From positions 1 to 10,207 of the forward strand of contig CALMYW010000525.1 of the NCBI GenBank assembly GCA_937873665.1: a stretch of DNA of 10,207 bases. The letters are read 5' to 3'. Under the pieces are notes generated by a model. It saw nothing but the letters and a program-made list of their open reading frames with translations. It ran no database searches and had not been told where the DNA came from. The position numbers were made by a program, and so were the translations under genes. This document shows positions 1 through 10,207 of the stretch, piece after piece (the stretch's first letter is position 1; every line of letters begins with the position of its first letter). Origin of the DNA: an uncultured Sphingorhabdus sp. Its GTDB lineage: Bacteria; Pseudomonadota; Alphaproteobacteria; Sphingomonadales; Sphingomonadaceae.

Positions 1-54
1 ATTCTCGCGCTGGCGGTCACCGCCCATCCCGATTTCGACGATACCCCGCTGTTC
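1..54 (+). pseudogene. Host reading frame interrupted by the transposon (fragment)
   Basis: The bases outside the left inverted repeat stay open in frame 1 and read ILALAVTAHPDFDDTPLF, with mostly G or C at third codon positions. Read on into the transposon, the frame gains 15 residues and stops at TAA 100-102, so the insertion would truncate this protein. I do not recognise the family from 18 residues. The opposite strand also has an open frame here, so the coding strand is a judgement. Function is unknown. Confidence 0.35.
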
Positions 55-110
55 GGCGTCACCTCAAGGTTTGTGCGCCAGACAACGATTTGGCGGACAT
101 AATGAGAACA
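55..110 (+). repeat. Left terminal inverted repeat (IRL)
   Basis: This matches the reverse complement of 10151-10206 at 54 of 56 positions, with the outermost 40 bases identical. It ends four bases before the tnpA stop codon. The usual Tn3-family repeat is about 38 bp, so the conserved stretch is longer than needed for an ordinary transposase-binding end. It starts GGCGTC rather than the common GGGG of Tn3 and Tn21. Confidence 0.95.
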
Positions 111-114
111 CTGG

Positions 115-3084
115 CTATGCCACGAGTTTGAGGCGGGCCATGGGATCGTTGAGGGTGCGGAACTCGCCAGGGGAGAGCCGGTTTGCCCTTTGCCACAGAT
201 AGTCGCCGGTCAAACTGATATGCACCCAGCCCATCGGCGAGAGATGGGCAAGCAGCGCATCATCGAAGGTGCCGCCGGATGATTGGAGATGCTGGGCGGC
301 CCTGTCCATATAGACGGTGTTCCAGTAAGAAATCGCCGCGATCAGCAGATTGAGGCCCGATGCCCGATATTCCTGATTCTCGATCGAGCGATCGGTGAAC
401 CGCCCCTGTCGGTTGGTGTAGATCGCGGCGGCAAGGGTATGACGTGCTTCGCCTTTATTGAGGCCGGCCTGGCAGGCGCGACGCAAGTCGGGCTGTTCAA
501 GCCAGTCGAGCGCAAATAGCGTCCGCTCGATGCGGCCGAGTTCGGCCAGCGCAAAATCCAGCCTGTTCTGGCGCTTGTAGGCGGCCAGCTTGCGCAGGAT
601 CGCGGAGGGCGCAACGGCTCCTTCCTTAATGGAGGCGACGATCCTGACGATGTCATCCCAATCGGCTTCGATCGCCGCCGTCTTGATCGTGCGGCCCATG
701 AGGCTTTCGATGCCTTTGTAGGTCGAAGGCGCGGCGATCGAGCCGAGTTTCCGGTCGGCGATGTCGCGCAGACGGGGCACGAACCGGAAGCCGAGAAGAT
801 GGCAAAGGGCAAAGACATGGTCCGTCGCGCCGCCGGTATCAGTGTAATGCTCATGCAGCGGTAGCGCGCCGGCGCCGAGCATCAGGCCATCCAGCACGTA
901 GGGGGCCTCGCCGGCGGTGGCCGACATGATCCGCGATCCGAACGAGGCAAAATGATCGGACAGGTGGGAGTAGATCTTCAGGCCCGGCTCGCTGCCATAT
1001 TTCGCATTGATGTCGGCCGCCGCCGATCGGTTGCGGCCCGAGCGGAAGAACTGCCCATCGGAGGATGAACTAGTGCCGGCTCCCCAATGGCGCGTGAAAG
1101 GAAGATCATGGTGCGCGGCAACGATCATCCCCAACGCGGCCTGATAGTTTTCGGGCGACAAATACCAGTTGTGGGTCCAGGCAAGCTGGGCGTAGCTCAC
1201 CCCGTCGCTGGCGTTGGCCATGCGCTCTAGACCCAGATTCGATCCATCAGCGAGAATGGCGGCGAGGATCGCGTGCGGGTTGTCATGCTCCTTGCCGGAC
1301 CGAAGATCGCGAAATGCGCTCAGGAACCCGGTGCGCTCGGCCACCTCGACCAGGAGTTCGGTGATCCGCACGCGCGGAAGCAAGGCGTCGAGCCTGCGAT
1401 CGAGAGCCTCCGCCTCGGGTGGAGTGATCGCCGGCATGGGTTGCAGCTTGAGCCGGTCGCGTTCGAGCGCCACGCCCGCGAGCCTGTTCGCCTTGAGTTG
1501 CTTGGCGAAACGGCGCAGCCGCCAGTCGAGCGTCCTTGCCCGCTCCTCCAGATAGGCGGCCGCATCGGTCTGGAATGGCAGGCTGTCGGCCACCTTATCG
1601 GCATCGCGTCGACTCAGCAAATAGGTGTCGAAGCGGCGATAATTGCGGGTTCCTTCGACCCATATGTCGCCGGCGCGCAACCGATCGCGCAGCGTGGCCA
1701 TGATGGCCGTCTCGTATCGCCGGCGATCGACCTGGCCACCTTCGGTGATGAGGCGCTTCCACTGCCGGTTGGCGAATGGGAGCGGAACGCCCTCGGGCAG
1801 GCTGCGGGCCTTGCGGGCATTGGTATCGCGGATGACCTCGATGGCCTTGACCAGTTGCGATCCGCTCCCCGATGCCTTGAACGTGAATGTATCGAGGAAA
1901 GCCGGGCTGAACCGCCGCAGCGTCGCATAGCGACCAGTCGCCGCGACAAGCGCATCTTCGCCCGCCAGCTCGGCCAGCGCATCGACCTGCGATTTGGCTG
2001 CGACCAGTCTGTGCCAGCCTACCGCTTCGTCGATCAGTTCGAGCGGATTACCGCCATGTTCGACCGCCTCTCCCAGCGCGGCGATCGTCGCGCCGAACAG
2101 CCGCATAAGTTCGCCGACCGAGCGGATGCTGTCCTGATAGCGCCTTTCCCGCCCGCGCCGCGCCCGTGTGAACAGGCTTCCGACAAGCCTGTCGAACATC
2201 TGGATCGCACCATCGGCGAGCCTGGCATCGAGGTCGATGACCGCCGCGATCAGCGTCGCGCGGCGCCTGTTAAGGCTATAATCGGAGAGCAGGAACGCCG
2301 GCGCAACGCCACCTTCGCGCATGAACTGCGCGAACCGGAAGTCGGGGATTTTCGCGCCGATCGCCGGGTCGATGCCGATTCCGCGCACATAGCGTAGCCG
2401 TTCCAGCAGCCCGTTGATGTTCGCCGTGGTGGGCGCTTCCTCGAAATTGCGCAGCCAGGCCAGCGGCGTCATGCCGAAGTCGCTGTTGTTGACGATCAGA
2501 TCATCGATCCGCGCCAGTTCGGCATGACCCAGGCTTTCGACAATGAGCGCCGCCGCGGCTTTGCGGGCGCGTGCCCTGCCGGCGAGGCCCGCACGTTCGA
2601 GCGTGTCTGCCGATGGAAGAATGAAGCGTTCCTGCTTCAGCCCCTCCATCAATGCGCGGACAATAGGTTCGCCCCGATCGGTCCGCTCCGCAGCTCTTGC
2701 GGCGAGATCGAGCGCGAGCGGTATATCCCCTCGCCGAAAAGGGTGTAGCCCCAGATGCCGTGCCGCAATGTCGGCATGATCGTTACGTGTTTGCGCGCGC
2801 TGGCCATAGTCGGCGAACGCATCAACATCGACGAAGAGCTGGGCGGCGAGATAGTGAAGGACCGCATCGGGGACGTCGACGTCGGGCTGCAAACCGAAGC
2901 CGGGATGCCGCATAAGCGCGATCTGCGTTGCCAGACCGAGGCGGTTGGCAGGGCGATAGCGGCGACCGACCAGTTCGAGATCCTCGGCGGCAAGGGTATA
3001 GTGGCCGACGATCGCGGTTTCGTCATGGGGGATATCGAACAGGCGACGCCTTTCTTCTCCGGTCAATAATCGCCGCCGCGCCAT
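115..3084 (-). CDS. tnpA: Tn3-family transposase TnpA
   Basis: This DDE transposase of 989 residues binds the terminal repeats and carries out replicative transposition, forming a cointegrate. The length is standard for the family. The catalytic core can be placed: Asp676 in SSSDGQ, Asp749 in HYTDTGG and Glu879 in LNKGEARH, at offsets that match the known Tn4430 triad (D679, D751, E881). Other family signatures are ADGSNLGL (about 612-619), ENQEYRASGLNLL (about 902-914) and WNTVY (921-925). The ATG at 3084 has GGAGG just upstream on the coding strand and the N-terminus MARRRLLTGEER is typical. It is divergent from tnpR across the res region. The stop codon lies against IRL, as usual when tnpA is terminal. 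No frameshift or lost key residue was seen, so it is probably active. Confidence 0.97.
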   Translation of the reverse strand: MARRRLLTGEERRRLFDIPHDETAIVGHYTLAAEDLELVGRRYRPANRLGLATQIALMRHPGFGLQPDVDVPDAVLHYLAAQLFVDVDAFADYGQRAQTRNDHADIAARHLGLHPFRRGDIPLALDLAARAAERTDRGEPIVRALMEGLKQERFILPSADTLERAGLAGRARARKAAAALIVESLGHAELARIDDLIVNNSDFGMTPLAWLRNFEEAPTTANINGLLERLRYVRGIGIDPAIGAKIPDFRFAQFMREGGVAPAFLLSDYSLNRRRATLIAAVIDLDARLADGAIQMFDRLVGSLFTRARRGRERRYQDSIRSVGELMRLFGATIAALGEAVEHGGNPLELIDEAVGWHRLVAAKSQVDALAELAGEDALVAATGRYATLRRFSPAFLDTFTFKASGSGSQLVKAIEVIRDTNARKARSLPEGVPLPFANRQWKRLITEGGQVDRRRYETAIMATLRDRLRAGDIWVEGTRNYRRFDTYLLSRRDADKVADSLPFQTDAAAYLEERARTLDWRLRRFAKQLKANRLAGVALERDRLKLQPMPAITPPEAEALDRRLDALLPRVRITELLVEVAERTGFLSAFRDLRSGKEHDNPHAILAAILADGSNLGLERMANASDGVSYAQLAWTHNWYLSPENYQAALGMIVAAHHDLPFTRHWGAGTSSSSDGQFFRSGRNRSAAADINAKYGSEPGLKIYSHLSDHFASFGSRIMSATAGEAPYVLDGLMLGAGALPLHEHYTDTGGATDHVFALCHLLGFRFVPRLRDIADRKLGSIAAPSTYKGIESLMGRTIKTAAIEADWDDIVRIVASIKEGAVAPSAILRKLAAYKRQNRLDFALAELGRIERTLFALDWLEQPDLRRACQAGLNKGEARHTLAAAIYTNRQGRFTDRSIENQEYRASGLNLLIAAISYWNTVYMDRAAQHLQSSGGTFDDALLAHLSPMGWVHISLTGDYLWQRANRLSPGEFRTLNDPMARLKLVA

Positions 3085-3119
3085 CCTGCCTCCATCCCGA
3101 GTCGAGAGCGACAGGCTAG

Positions 3120-3239
3120 CGTCAATCTGGAGTATAGCCTAACCGGACGTCAGGATGCAGCGGCGGTTTCTGTCAGGATAGGGTTATGGCAAGCATTTAT
3201 TGACGCATGTTCCGCCGTGTCATAGAATTCAACCTGACA
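3120..3239. other. Candidate res site between tnpA and tnpR
   Basis: The 173 bp between the divergent tnpA and tnpR starts is where Tn3-type elements keep res, and it holds a plausible three-part arrangement. Near tnpA, CGTC (3120-3123) and GACG (3146-3149) frame 30 bp centred on AGTATA (3131-3136), a candidate crossover subsite I. A middle stretch starts TGTCAGGATAGG (3171) and ends TTGACG (3205), with a direct copy of GTCAGGAT at 3149 and 3172. Next to tnpR, TGTCA (3218-3222) and TGACA (3235-3239) form a 22-bp dyad. On the minus strand AGTATA reads TATACT, a possible -10 for tnpA without a clear -35. The subsite assignment is inference from spacing and dyads. Confidence 0.6.
3200..3228 (+). 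promoter_or_regulatory. Sigma-70-type promoter of tnpR
   Basis: TTGACG (3200-3205) and TAGAAT (3223-3228) are separated by exactly 17 bp, and each matches the consensus at five of six positions. Transcription would start near 3235, leaving a short leader to the tnpR ATG at 3258 with GGAGG at 3248-3252. The -10 lies inside the TGTCA/TGACA dyad next to tnpR, so resolvase bound there would block its own promoter. This is the usual autoregulation in Tn3-type elements. Confidence 0.65.
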
Positions 3240-3257
3240 TTTTGACCGGAGGCGGCG

Positions 3258-3818
3258 ATGAAAGGCCAGAGGATCGGTTACGTCCGGGTGAGCACATTCG
3301 ATCAGAATGTCGATCGCCAGTTGGACGGGCAGTCGCTCGACCGGATTTTCACCGACAAGGCATCGGGCAAGGACATCAACCGCCCCGAACTCGATGCCAT
3401 GCTCGCCTTCGCCCGCGAGGGTGACACCGTCGTGGTCCACAGCATGGATCGATTGGCGCGTAATCTCGACGATCTGCGCAAACTGGTTCAGTCCCTCACC
3501 AAAAGAGGCGTCCGGATCGAGTTCGTGAAGGAAAGCCTGGCCTTCTCGGGCGAGGATTCCCCGATGGCCAACCTGATGCTCTCGGTCATGGGTGCGTTCG
3601 CCGAATTCGAGCGCGCCCTGATCCGGGAGCGGCAGCGCGAAGGCATTGCGGTCGCTAGACAACGCGGTGCTTATCGCGGGCGGAAACGTTCCCTCTCCGA
3701 CGAAATGGTCGCCGAGCTGCACCGCCGTGTTGATGACGGCGAGCGCAAGGCCGTCATCGCCCGTGACCTGGGGATCAGTCGCGAAACCCTCTACCAGTAT
3801 CTCCGCGCTGCCACCTGA
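3258..3818 (+). CDS. tnpR: Serine resolvase TnpR
   Basis: This small serine recombinase (186 residues) resolves cointegrates at res. The N-terminal catalytic domain begins RIGYVRVSTFDQN with nucleophile Ser12 and Arg10. Further active-site arginines are visible around Arg42 (NRPELD), Arg65 and Arg68 (SMDRLARNL) and Arg123-Arg125 (IRERQREG). The long E helix spans roughly residues 100-135, and a Hin-type helix-turn-helix (about 145-183, including IARDLGISRETLYQYL) binds DNA. The length matches Tn3/gamma-delta resolvases. ATG at 3258 has GGAGG five bases upstream. The gene is divergent from tnpA and convergent with the ATP-grasp gene that ends the chr operon, with 84 bp between them and no clear terminator. 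Confidence 0.96.
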   Translation: MKGQRIGYVRVSTFDQNVDRQLDGQSLDRIFTDKASGKDINRPELDAMLAFAREGDTVVVHSMDRLARNLDDLRKLVQSLTKRGVRIEFVKESLAFSGEDSPMANLMLSVMGAFAEFERALIRERQREGIAVARQRGAYRGRKRSLSDEMVAELHRRVDDGERKAVIARDLGISRETLYQYLRAAT

Positions 3819-3902
3819 GCCGGTTTCACCCAGCCTCGCTCACCCTTAGGCTTGTCTGATTGATACGACCAATGTCACGTCTCTTGAATTGCTTGAATCA
3901 TA

Positions 3903-4982
3903 TCAATGAGGATTGGAGGTCTCCTTCGTCAAACGAATGGCAAGAGCGCGACCGATTGCCGCTGCGGCGACTGGCTGGACGGCGCTTGGCGGAAATGGTG
4001 CAACCGAACTAGCATTGATCTCGCAAAGCGCATAGGAGCCATCGCTGATGGCTTCACCAGGGCGAAATAGGAAGTCGGCGTCCCAAAGAAGCGGAAGATC
4101 GTGGTCGGCGATCGACAGCAACCTTTGCATCTCTGGAATCCAGCGATCCTCCATCGCTTTCCGTAAGGCTGCGAAGCGCGTCACCTCCGGTCCGAACATG
4201 GCGCGGCCCATCGGCTGTGGGGTTGACGACGTTGTATCAATGGCCGTTGGCGTCATCAGCGCAGTGATCAGGTTGTGCCCAAAGCCAACCACTCGGTGCC
4301 CGCACACGTAGCAGCGGACCATGCCCTCGGACGACTGCGGCTGATAAGCCTGATCGATCAGCACGCCGCCGTCGTTTAGAAACGGCACCCACCTTTCCAA
4401 GCACTCGGCTAGGCTGATGCGCTCCGATTTGCTTCCTTGGCGGGCCTCTTGAACTTTCACCGACGTTTTCAAAGCCGGAGCGTTTCCCGCTTCGTCTAGT
4501 TGGACACGCCATACATTCCTGCCGCCGTTGCCGTAGTTCGGCTTCAGCACGCGCGGGCCTGCGGCAAGATGTTCGGGGAAACGAGCGCGAAGGCCTTCAG
4601 CGTCCACGTATCGATCGACATCGCTGCCCCATTCCATGGATCGCGTTGTGTAGAGCACTTCCTTGACGCCGATTTTGGCGATCACGTCAGGATGCGCGCT
4701 GACGACAACGCCGCACCCCGCGACTTCGCGCAGCATTGGATCGAGCTGCGAGCGGTCGCCTGAAATGTCCAACGGATTCACCCAGACCAGCACTGCGTCG
4801 CACGACAGCAGCTCGTCCCGAATCTCGCGAACCGCCTCGTCCCTGTACAGTACAGGCCTTGCGGTCGCCCCGAGCGCCCGCAAGGCCTGCATTATCGGCC
4901 ACTGCCGGGCTTCATGAAAGCGATGCGTCCACTCGGCTGCTTGCCCACGCCAAAGAAGAGCGATGTTCGGGCCGGATGTCAT
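3903..4982 (-). CDS. ATP-grasp protein, Cj0069-like family
   Basis: This 359-residue protein has ATP-grasp features: a glycine-rich nucleotide loop with lysine, VLKPNYGNGGRNVW (145-158), and metal and ATP ligands near the C-terminus, with Asp301 and Asp303 in WDADFLF and CEINASS containing Glu321 and Asn323. It resembles the family named after Campylobacter Cj0069. ATP-grasp enzymes usually join a carboxylate to an amine or thiol through an acyl phosphate, but substrate and product cannot be told here. No signal peptide is seen, so it should be cytoplasmic. The ATG at 4982 has GGGGAG eight bases upstream. The frame is open further upstream but lacks a comparable start signal. It lies 88 bp after the dismutase on the same strand, as the last gene of the chr operon. 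By eye its codons are less GC-rich than those of chrA or chrB, suggesting separate acquisition. Confidence 0.72.
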   Translation of the reverse strand: MTSGPNIALLWRGQAAEWTHRFHEARQWPIMQALRALGATARPVLYRDEAVREIRDELLSCDAVLVWVNPLDISGDRSQLDPMLREVAGCGVVVSAHPDVIAKIGVKEVLYTTRSMEWGSDVDRYVDAEGLRARFPEHLAAGPRVLKPNYGNGGRNVWRVQLDEAGNAPALKTSVKVQEARQGSKSERISLAECLERWVPFLNDGGVLIDQAYQPQSSEGMVRCYVCGHRVVGFGHNLITALMTPTAIDTTSSTPQPMGRAMFGPEVTRFAALRKAMEDRWIPEMQRLLSIADHDLPLLWDADFLFRPGEAISDGSYALCEINASSVAPFPPSAVQPVAAAAIGRALAIRLTKETSNPH

Positions 4983-5070
4983 TGTTGCATCTCCCCATCG
5001 GACCTGTCCCCTTTGTGGTCGCGAACTCAGGTGTCGCGCAGCAGTGGGTGTTAAGCCACGGCGGTCGGGT

Positions 5071-5802
5071 TCAGCCGCCGCCGCGCAAAGCCGCGGCATA
5101 GCGCCGGTCGACCACTTCCCAGTCGATGTTGCGGAAGAAGGCGTCGACATATTTGGCGGCGGCGGTGCCGTAATCCATGTGGAAACTGTGCTCGTACATA
5201 TCGAGCGCGAGCAGCGGCACGCCGGCAATCGCACCGTGCATATGATCCCACGCCCAATGGTTGTGCAGCGAGCGCGTGTGGAGATTGTAGACGAGCACGC
5301 ACCAGCCCGATCCGCCGGCAAGGCTCATCCCGGTACGGCGGAAGTCGGCTTCCCAGCGGTCGAACGAGCCGAACGCCGCGCCCAGCGCGTCGCGGATGGA
5401 ACCGGCTGCCTGGCCGTTGCCGCCGAGCCCGTCGAAATAGACCTCATGGAGCACGACCGAGCCGGTGCGGTGCAGCTCCTCGCGCTTCAATCCGCCATAG
5501 ACCACCGGCGGCAGGTCCGTGTCAGCGAGCGCGGCGGCAAGTCGTGTCTCGATCATATTCAGGGCCTTGACCGAGCCCGCATAATTGTTCTCGTGGTGCG
5601 ATGTGATCAGCCTTTCGGAGAGGCCGTGAAGCCTGGCGGGATTGAACCTGAGCGGCTTGACCTGATGATTTCCGGCAAAGGCGGGGACAGCCGCCGGCGC
5701 TGCGGCCGGCGTCTGCGCAGAGGCTTCGTTGATAGTCATGGCGGCGGCTCCGATGCCAAGAGTTGCGATTGCACTGCGTCGGGAAAGATGGTCGATCGTC
5801 AC
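5071..5802 (-). CDS. chrC: Exported Fe/Mn superoxide dismutase (ChrC type)
   Basis: This enzyme converts superoxide to hydrogen peroxide and oxygen. The 243-residue protein has the Fe/Mn SOD fold signatures: His69 or His70 in [10 protein letters not shown], His119 in [13 protein letters not shown], and Asp201 and His205 in [10 protein letters not shown] as metal ligands. The N-terminus carries a twin-arginine motif ([15 protein letters not shown]), giving probable Tat export to the periplasm, with cleavage near ASA (residues 27-29). The start is GTG at 5802. It is favoured because GAAGGAG (5809-5815) sits six bases upstream, overlaps the chrA stop and suggests translational coupling. A dismutase after chrBA is the chrC gene of TnOtChr-type determinants, thought to counter oxidants made when Cr(VI) is reduced. 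Whether iron or manganese is used cannot be decided. Confidence 0.92.
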
Positions 5803-5813
5803 GCGTCACTCCT

Positions 5814-7211
5814 TCAGATGATCATTACATATGCGGCCCCGAGGACCGAGCAGACGCCGAGCACCGGCAGCATGCCGGCCTTGAACCGGAACATGGCGAG
5901 TATCGCACCCACCGCGAGCGCCAGCGCCGGCCAGTTGACGGACGTTAGGACTGGGAGATCGATGGTGCCGGCTGCGAACGGCACTTCGCGGACTTGCTCG
6001 AACAGAGTGTGGATACCAAACCAGACCGCCAGATTGAGGATCACGCCGACCACTGCGGCGGTGATCGCCGAAAGCGCGGCCGACAATGCGCGGTTGCCGC
6101 GCAGCCGCTCGATGAATGGCGCGCCGGCGAAGATCCACAGGAAGCATGGCAGGAAGGTAACCCAGGTGGTGAGGATTGCGCCGAAGGTCGCGGCGACGAG
6201 CGGCGGCAGCCCGGTCGCTTCGCGGAAGGCCGCGAGGAAGCCGACGAACTGCGTCACCATGATCAGCGGCCCGGGCGTGGTCTCGGCCATGCCGAGCCCG
6301 TCGAGCATCTCGCCGGGCTGGAGCCAGCCATAGGTCTCGACTGCCTCCTGCGCGACATAGGCGAGCACCGCATAGGCGCCGCCGAAGGTCACCACCGCCA
6401 TCTGGCTGAAGAAGGTGGCGATGCGGCTGAACACGTCGTCGGGGCCGAACGCGAACAGCAGCGCTGCGACCGGCCCGAGCCAGAGCAGCAGCAGGACGCC
6501 GGAGATGCGCAGCGACCAAGAGAGGTTCGGCCGGGCATGGTCGGGAAGGCCCTCGCCAAGAGCGGTGTCGCGGTCGTGGATTATCTCAGCGCCGGCGGGA
6601 CCATGTCCGCCGCCGCCCTTGAATGCGGCGTAACCAGCGCGGCCACTGAAGAAGCCGATCAGCGCGGCGGCAAGCACGATCAGCGGGAAGGGCACGTCGA
6701 GCACGAAGATCGCGACGAACGCCAGCGCGGCAAAACCGCGCATGACGTTGTTCTTCAAGGCACGCGAACCCACCCGGACCACCGCCTGTAGCACCACCGC
6801 CAGCACGGCGGCCTTCAATCCGAAGAACAATCCCTCGACCAGCGGCACTTCGCCGAGCAGCACATAGACATAGCTGAGCCCTAAAATCGCGAGGAAGCCG
6901 GGCAGCACGAATAGCGCGCCCGCGACCAGGCCGCCCTTGGTCTTATGGAGCAACCAGCCAATATAGACAGCTAGCTGTTGCGCTTCAGGGCCGGGCAGCA
7001 GCATGCAATAGTTGAGCGCGTGGAGGAACCGCTCCTCGCCGATCCAGCGCTTCTCCTCGACCAGGATGCGATGCATCACCGCTATCTGGCCCGCCGGTCC
7101 GCCGAAGCTGAGCAGCGCGACCCTGATCCAGACGCGCACCGCCTCGCCAAAGCTGATGCCGTGCTCGTGCAGCGTCTCGACTGCGATTTCAGCGCGTGCG
7201 CTGGCCTCCAT
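5814..7211 (-). CDS. chrA: Chromate efflux transporter ChrA
   Basis: This inner-membrane transporter of the CHR superfamily exports chromate from the cytoplasm using the membrane potential. At 465 residues it is a long-chain, two-domain ChrA. The N-terminal half has SFGGPAGQIAVM (about 35-46) and LLPGPEAQQLA (71-81). A charged, glycine-rich loop (about 195-230) separates it from a homologous C-terminal half with TFGGAYAVLAYV (275-286) and ETTPGPLIMVTQFVGF (310-325). About ten or more hydrophobic segments can be counted. The ATG at 7211 lies two bases past the chrB stop, with AGAGGA inside the chrB tail as ribosome site, so the two are almost certainly cotranslated. Sulfate, a chromate analogue, is a conceivable alternative substrate, but chrB and chrC beside it make chromate clearly the better call. 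Confidence 0.96.
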   Translation of the reverse strand: MEASARAEIAVETLHEHGISFGEAVRVWIRVALLSFGGPAGQIAVMHRILVEEKRWIGEERFLHALNYCMLLPGPEAQQLAVYIGWLLHKTKGGLVAGALFVLPGFLAILGLSYVYVLLGEVPLVEGLFFGLKAAVLAVVLQAVVRVGSRALKNNVMRGFAALAFVAIFVLDVPFPLIVLAAALIGFFSGRAGYAAFKGGGGHGPAGAEIIHDRDTALGEGLPDHARPNLSWSLRISGVLLLLWLGPVAALLFAFGPDDVFSRIATFFSQMAVVTFGGAYAVLAYVAQEAVETYGWLQPGEMLDGLGMAETTPGPLIMVTQFVGFLAAFREATGLPPLVAATFGAILTTWVTFLPCFLWIFAGAPFIERLRGNRALSAALSAITAAVVGVILNLAVWFGIHTLFEQVREVPFAAGTIDLPVLTSVNWPALALAVGAILAMFRFKAGMLPVLGVCSVLGAAYVMII

Positions 7212-7213
7212 CT

Positions 7214-8164
7214 TTAGTCCTCTTTTCGCCGGGTGAAGTGAGCATAGAATCCGTCGAGCGCGGTCGATCCGCGCGCGATCCGCTCCTCGTCGTCGTCGGT
7301 GCCGGCACAGATGCCGGCGATAAGCGCGCTCACTCCCGGAGTTTCCGGGCGCTCGAACCGAGCATCGGCAATATCAAGGTCGTGAACAATTTCGCCGAGC
7401 GCCCGCAGCGCGGGGTCGGTCTCGAGACCGGTGAGGAACACCAAGGTCTCGAAGGAGCAGCGGTCGCCTTCGTGGGTGAACTCAGCGTCCGCCATGTCGA
7501 ACCTCAGTTCGTCAGGCTCCGGCACATATCCTTTGCCCTCGACGAACTTGAAGCTCGCCTCGGGGTCGATGAAGCGGCGAATGAGCCAGGCGGACGCGAT
7601 GCGATCGACATGGACATGGCGGCGCGTCACCCAAACGCGGCGCTTTAGCTCCGCCGGGGTCAGCTCGGGCGCACCGGGGCCGCTCACATCGGGATGTTGG
7701 TGAGAGCGGCGGTCCGCCTCGGTGATGGCGGCCTGTGCCGCCTGCCGACCATGCGCACCGAAAAAGTCGATCGCGGCGACCTCGTTCAGGCGTTTGCGCA
7801 GGCGGCCCACATCCGCCGCCGCGACATACTCGCCCTCACACAGCGCGCGCGCCTCGCGTGCCAACTCCTCATAGTCGGCGTCACGCGCAGCGTCGAACAC
7901 TCCGCGCAGCTCCGCATCGCCCATGCCGCCGACAAGGCGCGCTTCGAGGATCAGCGCCTCGCCGCCATTTTCGGTGATCTCGCGATGCAGTTCTTCGAAC
8001 AGCGCGCGCGTGTCCTCGCGATTGGGGAGCGCATGGACGGCGTTCTTGAGCGGCGCGGCCCCGATCGCCTGCAAACGCCGCCAGACCTTCACCCGCAAAT
8101 AGGCAGGCTTAGCCGGAAGCTGCGGGATCAGGAGCAACCAAGGGGAAGCTTGTGTGTTTGTCAT
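7214..8164 (-). CDS. chrB: Chromate-sensing regulator ChrB
   Basis: ChrB proteins are chromate-responsive regulators of chr operons in alphaproteobacteria and beta relatives. The 316 residues show the N-terminal ChrB region (PWLLLIPQLPAKPAYLRVKVWRR, here about 8-30, followed by GAAPLKNAVHALP) and the C-terminal ChrB domain with WVTRRHVHVDRIASAWLIRR (about 178-197), FTHEGDRCSFETL (229-241) and VHDLDIAD (260-267). The clusters of His, Asp and Cys suit oxyanion or metal sensing. ATG at 8164 gives the normal family N-terminus but lacks a strong ribosome site, hinting at a short or weak leader. It is the first gene of the operon chrB-chrA-chrC-ATP-grasp, starts in a 168-bp divergent promoter region, and probably regulates its own transcription. 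Confidence 0.94.
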   Translation of the reverse strand: MTNTQASPWLLLIPQLPAKPAYLRVKVWRRLQAIGAAPLKNAVHALPNREDTRALFEELHREITENGGEALILEARLVGGMGDAELRGVFDAARDADYEELAREARALCEGEYVAAADVGRLRKRLNEVAAIDFFGAHGRQAAQAAITEADRRSHQHPDVSGPGAPELTPAELKRRVWVTRRHVHVDRIASAWLIRRFIDPEASFKFVEGKGYVPEPDELRFDMADAEFTHEGDRCSFETLVFLTGLETDPALRALGEIVHDLDIADARFERPETPGVSALIAGICAGTDDDEERIARGSTALDGFYAHFTRRKED

Positions 8165-8179
8165 AGTTGTATCGTCACT

Positions 8180-8208
8180 AGCCTACAAGTGTAAGGGTTG
8201 CATCACAA
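8180..8208 (-). promoter_or_regulatory. Candidate chr operon promoter with a small dyad
   Basis: On the minus strand TTGTGA (8203-8208) and TAGGCT (8180-8185) are 17 bp apart. They match consensus hexamers at about four and three positions, so the promoter is modest. The short dyad TACA-AG-TGTA (8184-8193) overlaps the -10 and enters the spacer, where a repressor such as ChrB would act. This is inferred from position. The rest of the 168-bp gap (8165-8332) must also hold a promoter for the divergent DUF1259 gene, but I see no convincing one. Confidence 0.35.
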
Positions 8209-8332
8209 GCCTCATGAGCATAGGACTGCTTATCCCGAAGAAAGAAACCGGAGCGTAATGTCGCGGCTCGCCGGCGGCGCGCTCGCATGACGTGAGGCTT
8301 TCCGTGTCGAGTGCGCTGATGAAGGATCAATT

Positions 8333-9223
8333 ATGCTGAAAAAGACCATCGCCTTGGGATTCGCCAGCCTCCTGCTGGCAAGCCCGGCATGGGCAGCGCC
8401 GGACTGGTCGGCTGTCGACCGGGCGATAGGACGAGCGGGGGCCGAACAGCCGGGGGGCGTTCACCGCTACAGCTTCCCGCGTTCGGACCTGAGCGTCACG
8501 CTGGATGGGGTGACGATCAAGCCCTCCCTCGCGCTCGGCTCTTGGGCGGCGTTTCAGCCGATGGGCGACGAGGCGATGGTGATGGGCGATCTCGTGCTGA
8601 CCCACGACGAGGTGAACCCCGTTTTGAGCCGCCTGCTCGCAAGCGGTTTTACGATCACCGCGCTCCACAATCACCTGCTCCGCTCTTCGCCTGCGACCAT
8701 GTACATGCACATTGCCGGCCACGGCGACCCGGTGAAGCTCGCGGCCGCGCTCCGGCAAGCGCTATCAGCCAGTCGGACCCCGCTCGCCGCGCCGCAATCG
8801 CCTTCGGCCAGCGCAGCCGCATCGCGGCTCGACCTCGATGTGGCCGCGCTCAACCGGTTGATGGGCGGTGAGGGCAAGACGGCCGGTGGCATCCTCCAAT
8901 ACAGCTTTCCGCGCGCCGAGCGGCTGATGGACGGCGATATGGAGACTCCGCCGACGATGGGCACGGCGACCGCGATCAACTTTCAGCCAACCGGGGACGG
9001 CCGAGCCGCCATCACCGGCGATTTCGTACTTGTCGCAAACGAGGTCGATCCGGTCCTGCGCGTGCTGCGGACGAACGGGATCGAGGTCACGGCGCTGCAT
9101 AATCATATGCTAAACGACGAGCCGCGGCTGTTCTTCATGCACTTCTGGGCCAACGACGACGCAGCCAAGCTCGCCCGTGGGCTGCGCGCGGCGCTCGACA
9201 GGATGAACAATCAGAGGAGTTGA
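8333..9223 (+). CDS. Exported two-domain DUF1259 (LppY/LpqO-like) protein
   Basis: This is a 296-residue secreted protein with a clear Sec signal peptide (residues 1-21 or 22, SPAWA followed by APDW) and two tandem DUF1259 units at about 25-145 and 166-290. The repeats share the pattern GD-VL---EV-PVL--L---G---TALHNH-L, then MH and KLA--LR-AL. The histidines fall at His112, His114 and His126 in the first unit and at His256, His258 and His270 in the second. The repeated HNH and MH suggest metal or oxyanion binding, but no activity is established for the family as far as I know. ATG at 8333 has GAAGGA six bases upstream. It is divergent from chrB, so it could share chromate-linked control. A linker rich in Ala, Ser and Pro (about 145-165) joins the halves. 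Confidence 0.88.
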   Translation: MLKKTIALGFASLLLASPAWAAPDWSAVDRAIGRAGAEQPGGVHRYSFPRSDLSVTLDGVTIKPSLALGSWAAFQPMGDEAMVMGDLVLTHDEVNPVLSRLLASGFTITALHNHLLRSSPATMYMHIAGHGDPVKLAAALRQALSASRTPLAAPQSPSASAAASRLDLDVAALNRLMGGEGKTAGGILQYSFPRAERLMDGDMETPPTMGTATAINFQPTGDGRAAITGDFVLVANEVDPVLRVLRTNGIEVTALHNHMLNDEPRLFFMHFWANDDAAKLARGLRAALDRMNNQRS

Positions 9224-9300
9224 ACTCGGACGACGGCTCATTGGGCCGTAACCGCCGCCCGCCCGACCCCACGGCCCTTATGCAGGAAGTGGAATGGAAC

Positions 9301-9624
9301 ATGGCTAGCAAACGAACTCTCACTGTTGTCGCAGGCGTGGGCGCGGCCGCGCTGGCGATCGCGGGCGTGGCGATCGCGCAAAACCACGAGGCGAACGAAA
9401 ACCGGATAATCGGCAAGCACAGCGAACGAGACATCCCGCTTGCTCAGGTGCCCGAGGCCGCGATGAACGCGGCACGCGCGCAACTCGCGTCAATAAGCAA
9501 AGCGGAGCAAGTCACCCGAAAGGCGGACGGAAGCACGCTCTATGAAATCAAGGGCAAGAACAGCGACGGAAAGACGATCGAACTGTTCGTCACGCCCGAA
9601 GGCCAGGTGCTCGGCCGCGAATGA
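9301..9624 (+). CDS. Small exported PepSY-like protein
   Basis: This 107-residue protein starts with a basic, hydrophobic signal peptide (MASKRTLTVVAGVGAA, cleavage near AIA at residues 24-26). A short PepSY-like unit follows: IPLAQVPEAAMNAARAQLAS, then a strand pattern around STLYEIKGKNSDGKTIELFV and a final GQVLGRE. PepSY-like proteins are small periplasmic modules, often thought to inhibit proteases or bind ligands; the role here is unknown. I chose the ATG at 9301 because it gives a clean signal peptide, with purine-rich AGGAAG/GGAA stretches upstream. An ATG at 9280 adds seven residues. A TTG at 9220 overlaps the DUF1259 stop but would hide the signal peptide. It lies 77 bp after the DUF1259 gene on the same strand and may be cotranscribed with it. 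Confidence 0.72.
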   Translation: MASKRTLTVVAGVGAAALAIAGVAIAQNHEANENRIIGKHSERDIPLAQVPEAAMNAARAQLASISKAEQVTRKADGSTLYEIKGKNSDGKTIELFVTPEGQVLGRE

Positions 9625-9635
9625 TGGATCAGCAC

Positions 9636-9666
9636 GGGGCGCCGGCCGTCGAGGGCCGTGCGCCCC
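9636..9666 (+). terminator. Strong GC-rich stem-loop after the PepSY-like gene
   Basis: GGGGCGCCGGCC (9636-9647) pairs with GGCCG-T-GCGCCCC (9654-9666) as a 12-bp stem with one bulged T (9659) and the loop GTCGAG. Only TTCC follows, so there is no proper U-tract. It starts 12 bases after the PepSY-like stop and ends 33 bases before the Rap1a-like start. It could end or weaken transcription into that gene, or protect the upstream message. Confidence 0.5.
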
Positions 9667-9699
9667 TTCCGAAATGATACTGCGGAATAGGAGACGAAA

Positions 9700-10026
9700 A
9701 TGCGGCCAAGGCGATGGATATTGTTATGCGCCGCTTTGGCCGCCCTGCCTGATAGTGCGATCGGCCAAACCGAACCCGCGTCGGCGACGGGCTCGGCGTT
9801 GTTCGTAAGCTGTCAAGCGAATGAGCCGCGATGCGGCGCTTACCTCCAAGGCGTGCTCGACATGATGATCGTCGCGCGAAAAGCGGAATGCCGCGCTCCA
9901 CGCTATGACCGATCGGCGCTGCGCGCGGCATATTTACGCTGGGCGGAGCAGAATAGCTATTTTATGAGTGTTCATATGGTGGCCGGAGCTGAACGCTCGT
10001 TAGCGAAGGCTTGGCCATGTCAGTAG
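9700..10026 (+). CDS. Small exported Rap1a/Tai-like protein
   Basis: This 108-residue protein has a signal peptide (MRPRRWILLCAALAALPDSA, cleavage near residues 20-23) and a short domain resembling the Rap1a/Tai family: ALFVSCQANEPRCGAYLQGVLD (about 33-54), a mid Cys64 and the terminal WPC motif (105-107). The mature part has four cysteines (38, 45, 64, 107), as expected for two periplasmic disulfides. Rap1a and Tai proteins were first described as immunity proteins for type VI amidase effectors, but many relatives stand alone with no known effector. No effector gene is in the window. ATG at 9700 has AGGAGA (9689-9694) five bases upstream. Its own ribosome site and the hairpin before it allow separate regulation. 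The family call rests on pattern, not alignment. Confidence 0.62.
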   Translation: MRPRRWILLCAALAALPDSAIGQTEPASATGSALFVSCQANEPRCGAYLQGVLDMMIVARKAECRAPRYDRSALRAAYLRWAEQNSYFMSVHMVAGAERSLAKAWPCQ

Positions 10027-10045
10027 CATCGTACCCCGCGGCGTA

Positions 10046-10107
10046 GCCTGCCCGGCGGCTGCCTTTGAGGGCAGGCGGAGCGTCCGCCTGGCGGTGAATT
10101 CCGCCAG
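10046..10107. repeat. Three overlapping palindromes before the tnpA remnant
   Basis: Three perfect inverted repeats overlap in series. GCCTGCCC (10046-10053) pairs with GGGCAGGC (10069-10076). AGGCGGA (10073-10079) pairs with TCCGCCT (10083-10089) across a GCG loop. CTGGCGG (10088-10094) pairs with CCGCCAG (10101-10107) across TGAATT. As RNA the neighbouring stems would compete. The block lies 20 bp after the Rap1a-like stop and runs into the tnpA remnant. It may be a terminator without a U-tract, a REP-like palindrome, or a scar of the recombination that made the right end. Confidence 0.7.
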
Positions 10108-10146
10108 CTCAACGATCCCATGTCGCGCCTCAAGCTCGCTAATTAG
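10093..10146 (+). pseudogene. 3' remnant of a second Tn3-family tnpA
   Basis: The frame reads GEFRQLNDPMSRLKLAN and ends at TAG (10144-10146). It matches 13 of 17 residues of the resident TnpA C-terminus, GEFRTLNDPMARLKLVA. At DNA level about 41 of 54 positions agree by hand count, much less than the adjacent inverted repeats (54 of 56). It is therefore not a recent copy of the resident gene but the tail of a related transposon whose tnpA pointed outward to this end. Homology fades upstream of the glycine, where the palindromes lie. Confidence 0.88.
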
Positions 10147-10150
10147 CCGA

Positions 10151-10206
10151 TGTTCGCATTATGTCTGCCAAATCGTTGTCTGGCGCACAAACCTTGAGGT
10201 GACGCC
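10151..10206 (-). repeat. Right terminal inverted repeat (IRR)
   Basis: The reverse complement equals 55-110 except at two positions, and the outer 40 bases are identical. It sits four bases after the stop of the tnpA remnant, the same spacing seen between IRL and the resident tnpA. It was therefore born as a tnpA-side end of another element. The single base after it (10207, T) is the first flank base. Confidence 0.95.
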
Positions 10207-10207
10207 T

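Follow-up and report, generated by a model that had tools for sequence, protein, structure and literature searches.

The stretch of DNA analysed here (the window, 10,207 nucleotides) is filled from position 55 to 10206 by a complete Tn3-family transposon of 10,152 bp with chromate (chr) cargo. Sequence comparisons indicate that the right end of this element is a tnpA-side end reduced to ~165 bp, its tnpA part decayed and its terminal repeat kept, and that both ends of the transposon are thus of the tnpA type. The element probably originated from two related transposons that lay in opposite orientation around chr genes, with the outer tnpA-side ends put to use and the inner parts deleted.

The left terminal repeat (55–114, forward strand) lies on the tnpA side and by repeat comparison spans about 57–60 bp, its first 38 bp being identical to the right end. 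It is followed by tnpA (115–3084, reverse strand), which is open over 989 codons and encodes a 989-aa transposase with a Tn3-type DDE domain (DDE_Tnp_Tn3, Pfam accession PF01526, 1.7e-143; PF13700, 1.1e-43). A tnpR serine resolvase gene (3258–3818, forward; PF00239, 4.6e-38) is divergent from tnpA. The res site would lie between the two genes, as suggested by exchange within a 27-bp sequence (3128–3154) that chr elements and mercury (mer) elements have in common at res. Terminal inverted repeats of ~38 bp, identical at 38/38 positions, complete the Tn3-family features seen within the window.

Cargo begins right after tnpR. A Pfam scan, together with the annotation of relatives in the case of the first gene, identified a Cj0069/DUF6815 protein (3903–4982, reverse), a chrC-like Fe/Mn superoxide dismutase (5071–5802, reverse), the chrA chromate transporter (5814–7211, reverse), chrB (7214–8164, reverse), a DUF1259 protein (8333–9223, forward), a PepSY-like protein that scored below the Pfam cut-off (9304–9624, forward) and a Rap1a-like small protein (9700–10026, forward). 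The chrC of the Ochrobactrum tritici element TnOtChr is reportedly described as a putative superoxide dismutase as well.

Three complete plasmids (two from Sphingopyxis, one from Novosphingobium) carry elements of the same length that are at least 99.9% identical to the window element. The copy in the organism's own genome assembly (G000:C4:27896-38102) departs from it by 13 single-base differences within the transposon, and its left flank is not that of the window (1–54), so the window does not come letter for letter from that assembly. The same contig opens with another right end (G000:C4:1-91), which has its own outer flank, the remainder of that element lying past the contig end.

The two ends of the window element form an ungapped inverted repeat (55–168 and 10093–10206) in which 97/114 bases are identical. 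Identity is 54/56 over the first 56 bases, 56/60 over the first 60 and 41/54 for bases 61–114, and the next-best antiparallel 114-base match of the right arm within the window is 50/114. The right arm translates to ...GEFRQLNDPMSRLKLAN*, compared with ...GEFRTLNDPMARLKLVA* at the end of the resident tnpA. A sequence-only reading had reported a stop-terminated tnpA tail beside the right repeat, mirroring the left end, and repeats matching at 54 of 56 bases next to a tail at ~76%; both observations are real. That reading placed the right end at 10093–10206, a feature that exists but whose left limit was set too short, since similarity reaches about 10042.

The full right end of ~165 bp (10042–10206) resembles, without gaps, six of the seven tnpA-side ends compared, and the similarity drops to chance within one 15-base block beyond 10042. 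The seventh and most distant end (G381) resembles it in the repeat only. In a blastn comparison, 10045–10207 matched a mer-type tnpA at 74.8% with no gaps. Ungapped comparison and blastn define the decayed tail (10042–10146, forward) as 34 codons plus the stop of a Tn3-family tnpA, reading RSLPGGCL*GQAERPPGGEFRQLNDPMSRLKLAN* against ISLTGDYLWEQARRLPAGEFHPLNEPMARLKRVA* in the mer tnpA; the frame is the same and a nonsense codon has been added, a premature in-frame TGA at 10066–10068. Beyond it, repeat and end comparisons define the right terminal repeat, of tnpA-side type (10147–10206, reverse), with the outer boundary GGCGTC. When the two tnpA tails were aligned directly, the match held, with 65/105 bases identical and no gaps.

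Ordinary relatives have another kind of end at this place. In all five distinct complete relatives (the mer element L008, L009, L041, L042 and L043; L049 repeats L041 with identical flanks, and the pair is counted once), end-to-end identity is at chance after ~57 bp. The far end sits 62 bases past the tnpR stop in four of the five, with the repeat directly after tnpR, and adjoins toxin-antitoxin genes in L042. Homology of the chr element to those four relatives ends at the tnpR stop codon (3818). Because the 62 bases after this stop match the L041 end at only 15/62 positions and a search of the window for an internal remnant of a tnpR-side end gave nothing better than E=0.70 over 10 bases, we take the tnpR-side end to have been lost. 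By these comparisons the chr element is without the tnpR-side end of its nearest relatives and carries a tnpA-type end on either side.

The 41/54 match at bases 61–114 could also be read as a sign that the transposase needs the whole 114-bp repeat, or as a chance likeness. We regard either idea as highly improbable: the five ordinary relatives have no end-to-end similarity past ~57 bp, and two of them (L008 and L042) bear target duplications; the excess similarity follows the tnpA reading frame; and the best match elsewhere in the window falls far lower, at the 50/114 given above. The sharp drop in identity along the right end had been proposed to show which bases the transposase needs. It is not a clean guide to those bases: the conserved repeat of ~57 bp is seen more clearly in the ordinary relatives, and the excess similarity here reflects shared ancestry. 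The contrast is mostly one between decay and a conserved repeat.

The divergence of the right tail has a distinctive character. Its private changes fall at the three codon positions in the ratio 5/9/7, whereas those of the mer, ami and G122 tails combined are distributed 5/2/22 (Fisher p=0.0039). This first test kept the last two codons. The G122 tail lacks a stop at the expected codon; without G122 the comparison set becomes 4/3/22 (p=0.0039), and with the last two codons also removed the difference persists (p=0.0056). Judged by this pattern and by the nonsense codon, the private changes of the right tail are those of a decaying tnpA tail. The ~76% identity, which had been offered as evidence of two parents, largely reflects this decay; it does not by itself establish them, nor is it a simple measure of how far apart they were.

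We then placed the right tail among tnpA tails in a tree of the 105-nt alignment, trimmed of the last two codons in every row and with G381 serving solely as outgroup. Much of the tail's divergence being of the decay type, the right end might be an old, decayed duplicate of the element's own tnpA-side end, with a single parent transposon, and a position of the tail at any point in the resident clade or on its stem is indeed accommodated by the data (p-AU 0.62). A close copy is another matter: grouping the right tail with the resident tnpA and its nearest relative, wit, is rejected by the AU test (p=0.017) and marginal by the SH test (p=0.053). Placement as sister of mer, ami or G122 was acceptable in each case (p-AU 0.26–0.30), and all three sites fixed between the clades set the right tail apart from the resident clade and side with mer/ami/G122, though these states are shared with the outgroup. 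The cargo half, moreover, occurs apart from the resident tnpA half (see below). It is therefore improbable that the right tail was recently copied from the resident tnpA, and we consider a duplicate of the element's own end unlikely. The preferred reading remains an origin from two related transposons.

The decayed tail has one further peculiarity. Between 10046 and 10089 it contains two GC-rich inverted repeats, GCCTGCCC/GGGCAGGC and AGGCGGA/TCCGCCT, both formed in part by private changes. The first 51 nt have a minimum free energy of -25.4, whereas six other tails range from -11.1 to -17.2, and the fractions of random-substitution controls at least as stable as the right tail were 0.0085, 0.0165 and 0.04. 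Measured against dinucleotide shuffles, the folding z is only -0.71 (51 nt) and -1.38 (120 nt). We thus attribute the stability to higher G+C and do not claim a hairpin role; a terminator pattern was sought in the tail and not found.

Searches of genomes, plasmids, contigs, IMG/VR and proteins yielded neither an intact parent tnpA with this tail nor an intermediate with a longer piece of the second transposon. At the DNA level, 23 of 397 family genomes gave a match, with no more than two places in each genome scored, and none of these was a parent. Among 385 class genomes scored in the same way, six besides the organism's own contained fragments of 26–44 bases and again no parent, and two more of 14 genus genomes contained the complete 165 bp. 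The tail alone, used as a query against plasmids, matched 17 records, of which 14 are the same right end and the other three are tnpA-side ends at 82.6–88.1% over 42–46 bp; no parent was among them.

A degenerate GEFRQLNDPM pattern recovered 32 stretches from GTDB contigs, all of them the same fragment and none a full tnpA, and recovered nothing from IMG/VR; the pattern fixed the Q in GEFRQ, and a parent with another residue there would escape it. A protein search gave 185 proteins from 200 candidates scored; no parent appeared among the 120 listed, which were mostly of one tnpA type, and there the best tail matched 17/25 residues and the resident 15/25. A further protein search gave one candidate, and none was scored. 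The earlier proposal of two tnpA-type ends from two elements is thus borne out insofar as a tnpA-type end stands where ordinary relatives differ and is probably not a copy of the resident one, but these searches did not turn up the parent element, with a full tnpA joined to this end, that the proposal had foreseen.

The fragment itself is widespread. Each of the 32 GTDB contigs that contain the GEFRQLNDPM motif (up to 8,000 bases per contig examined) carries the tail, in every case continuous with chr cargo, and the 14 plasmids carry the same fragment and junction. From the motif onward, 60/60 bases are identical in 32/32 contigs, and upstream of it 90/90 are identical in 31; the remaining contig (L068) matches at 43/90 ungapped, though a blastn match there shows continuing homology. 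Among termini covering all 165 bases, the tail varies only in L014, L050 and L068 (one locus) and at one base in L140. Whether all close relatives carry the fragment as an ordinary right end, a finding the sequence-only reading had named as fatal to its proposal, can be answered half in the affirmative: the 32 contigs and 14 plasmids do, and sister elements without chr cargo lack it. A single junction is common to the copies, which dates the capture before the present spread, and the tail looks like an old, shared, working end of a widespread sphingomonad chromate transposon that is not special to this genome.

Several individual loci add detail to this distribution. The divergence of five chr modules from the window amounts to about 2% and is concentrated in the block ~4500–6250; L055, L079, L085, L088 and L089 differ by ~6–11% per 250 bases across most of this block and hardly elsewhere, and it looks like a replaced segment. 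At locus L141 (CP021186.1, 11878–12152) the chr half is reduced to its last 275 bp, flanked by an annotated invertase gene on one side and a plasmid rep gene on the other; this would be a deletion remnant that retained the end. The right end and chr cargo also occur in bins named Rhizobiales (L073) and Hyphomicrobium (L076), which could reflect transfer or mis-binning.

Flanking sequences point to mobility. Across the loci examined, 39 different 12-base sequences adjoin the right end on its outer side, a count that took only termini ending in GACGCC, so that the constancy of the boundary is by construction. Ten copies, out of a larger number in existence, were compared at both ends. Perfect 5-bp target duplications, the Tn3-family feature that has to be read from other copies since the window ends one base beyond the element, flank five of these ten: AAAAT (L040), CACCA (L050), TCAGA (L165), AGCTA (L166) and CACTT (L136, a mer-chr hybrid). 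The other five (L038, L039, L044, L135 and L053) have none, for which exchange at res may be the cause. The copy flanked by AAAAT lies inside a TonB receptor gene, where its removal restores a 669-codon stop-to-stop frame.

These flanks show that elements with this pair of ends have moved as a single unit and duplicated 5 bp of their targets. The right end is therefore functional; its partner is presumably the resident TnpA and, for L136, the mer TnpA, which is 84% identical to the resident protein, though a transposase from elsewhere is possible.

Hybrids between chr and mer elements reveal that the transposon is divided at res. L134, L135, L136 and L053 each have a mer half followed by a chr half whose first base corresponds to window base 3128, and L043 is the reciprocal product, with the resident tnpA and a mer-type tnpR. 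The switch falls within the 27 bp common to both res regions, where TnpR would have performed the joining. The flanks of L053 are consistent with such a history, the one on the tnpA side being that of the mer copy L008 and the other being different. Another chr half behind mer genes (L164, NZ_CP005191.1, pMI2) has IS6100 annotated beside its PepSY gene; this record is absent from the 17 plasmid records matched by the right tail.

Because the halves switch at res, the element can be viewed as two interchangeable halves, with the right end in the cargo half, and its two ends may have separate histories. At least two different tnpA halves, the resident one and that of mer, are found in front of the stretch from res to the right end. 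It is about an even question whether this stretch is a self-contained half-transposon, made up of a resolvase, the chromate cargo and an end of tnpA type that two or more TnpA proteins accept, that spreads by resolvase exchange onto available tnpA halves, with chr and mer elements sharing ends and cargo combinatorially. DNA exchange at res sites has reportedly been described by Kholodii (2001) as resolvase shuffling; the present case resembles it, with the addition that the exchanged half brings a tnpA-type end along.

These exchanges also bear on how the resident tnpA came to stand opposite this right end. The two-ended structure could have been built with another tnpA half, the present tnpA being gained only through resolvase exchange at res, so that the resident transposon and the parent of the right end were never directly joined. 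The near-identical chr halves behind resident and mer tnpA with their switch in the 27-bp sequence, the reciprocal hybrid L043 and the L053 flanks all favour this course of events, to which we give somewhat less than an even chance. It is compatible with our best explanation and does not exclude it, and the likelihoods of the two overlap.

In the origin we favour, two related transposons in opposite orientation would once have flanked chr genes. A transposase would then have used both outer tnpA-side ends, and through deletions the first element would have lost its inner end and the second all but a remnant. Capture and decay precede the present spread, the tail being nearly invariant among copies whose chr modules differ by as much as about 2%. 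This pathway is modelled on the account given for Tn1721, with an inverted orientation and an older, diverged partner.

Tn1721 is the closest precedent. In its accepted account, two copies of Tn1722 flank the cargo and one is partly deleted (PMC5736529), and the cargo side of the window element likewise ends in the truncated transposase gene of a second transposon, with that transposon's end beyond the cargo. Tn1721 as described there has three repeats, the two around the cargo being identical and in the same orientation (PMC5736529), whereas the window element has two ends with the second inverted; its tnpR-side end has been lost and its tail has diverged and decayed. It contains no complete minor transposon with both ends, as there is no tnpR-side end inside the window, and with tails identical at 65/105 bases its flanks do not come from one and the same transposon, though an old common origin is possible (p-AU 0.62).

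Other described elements share parts of this organization. TnOtChr is presented as a mobile element with tnpR and chrB, chrA and chrC (PMC3817168), and by that description it resembles the window element in combining tnpR with chromate genes for ChrB, ChrA and a superoxide dismutase. In TnOtChr chrB adjoins tnpR and chrF is present (PMC3817168), whereas here the Cj0069 gene adjoins tnpR and the Pfam scan revealed no chrF. TnPpa1 of Paracoccus provides a further case of two Tn3-family elements mobilizing the DNA between them, in which the flanking Tn3434 copies are described as identical (PMC3281130). Reduced Tn3-family elements termed TIME and TIME-COMP are likewise described as mobilizing what lies between them (PMC4133298, PMC13367494). 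TIME-COMP, by that description, is bounded on either side by a miniature element and encloses no genes for transposition, whereas the window element carries its own tnpA, open over its whole length. A literature search by title and abstract opening found no description of a sphingomonad chr transposon, which is not proof that it is unpublished.

Both Tn1721 and resolvase shuffling being already known, these observations change no principle. They provide a readable natural case in which a Tn3-family transposon may gain cargo by taking over a neighbour's end. The decayed tail beside the conserved repeat marks a natural limit (~57–60 bp) of what a working end has kept. The hybrids further suggest that, in this group, chromate and mercury transposons can swap an end, a resolvase and cargo together as one block at res.
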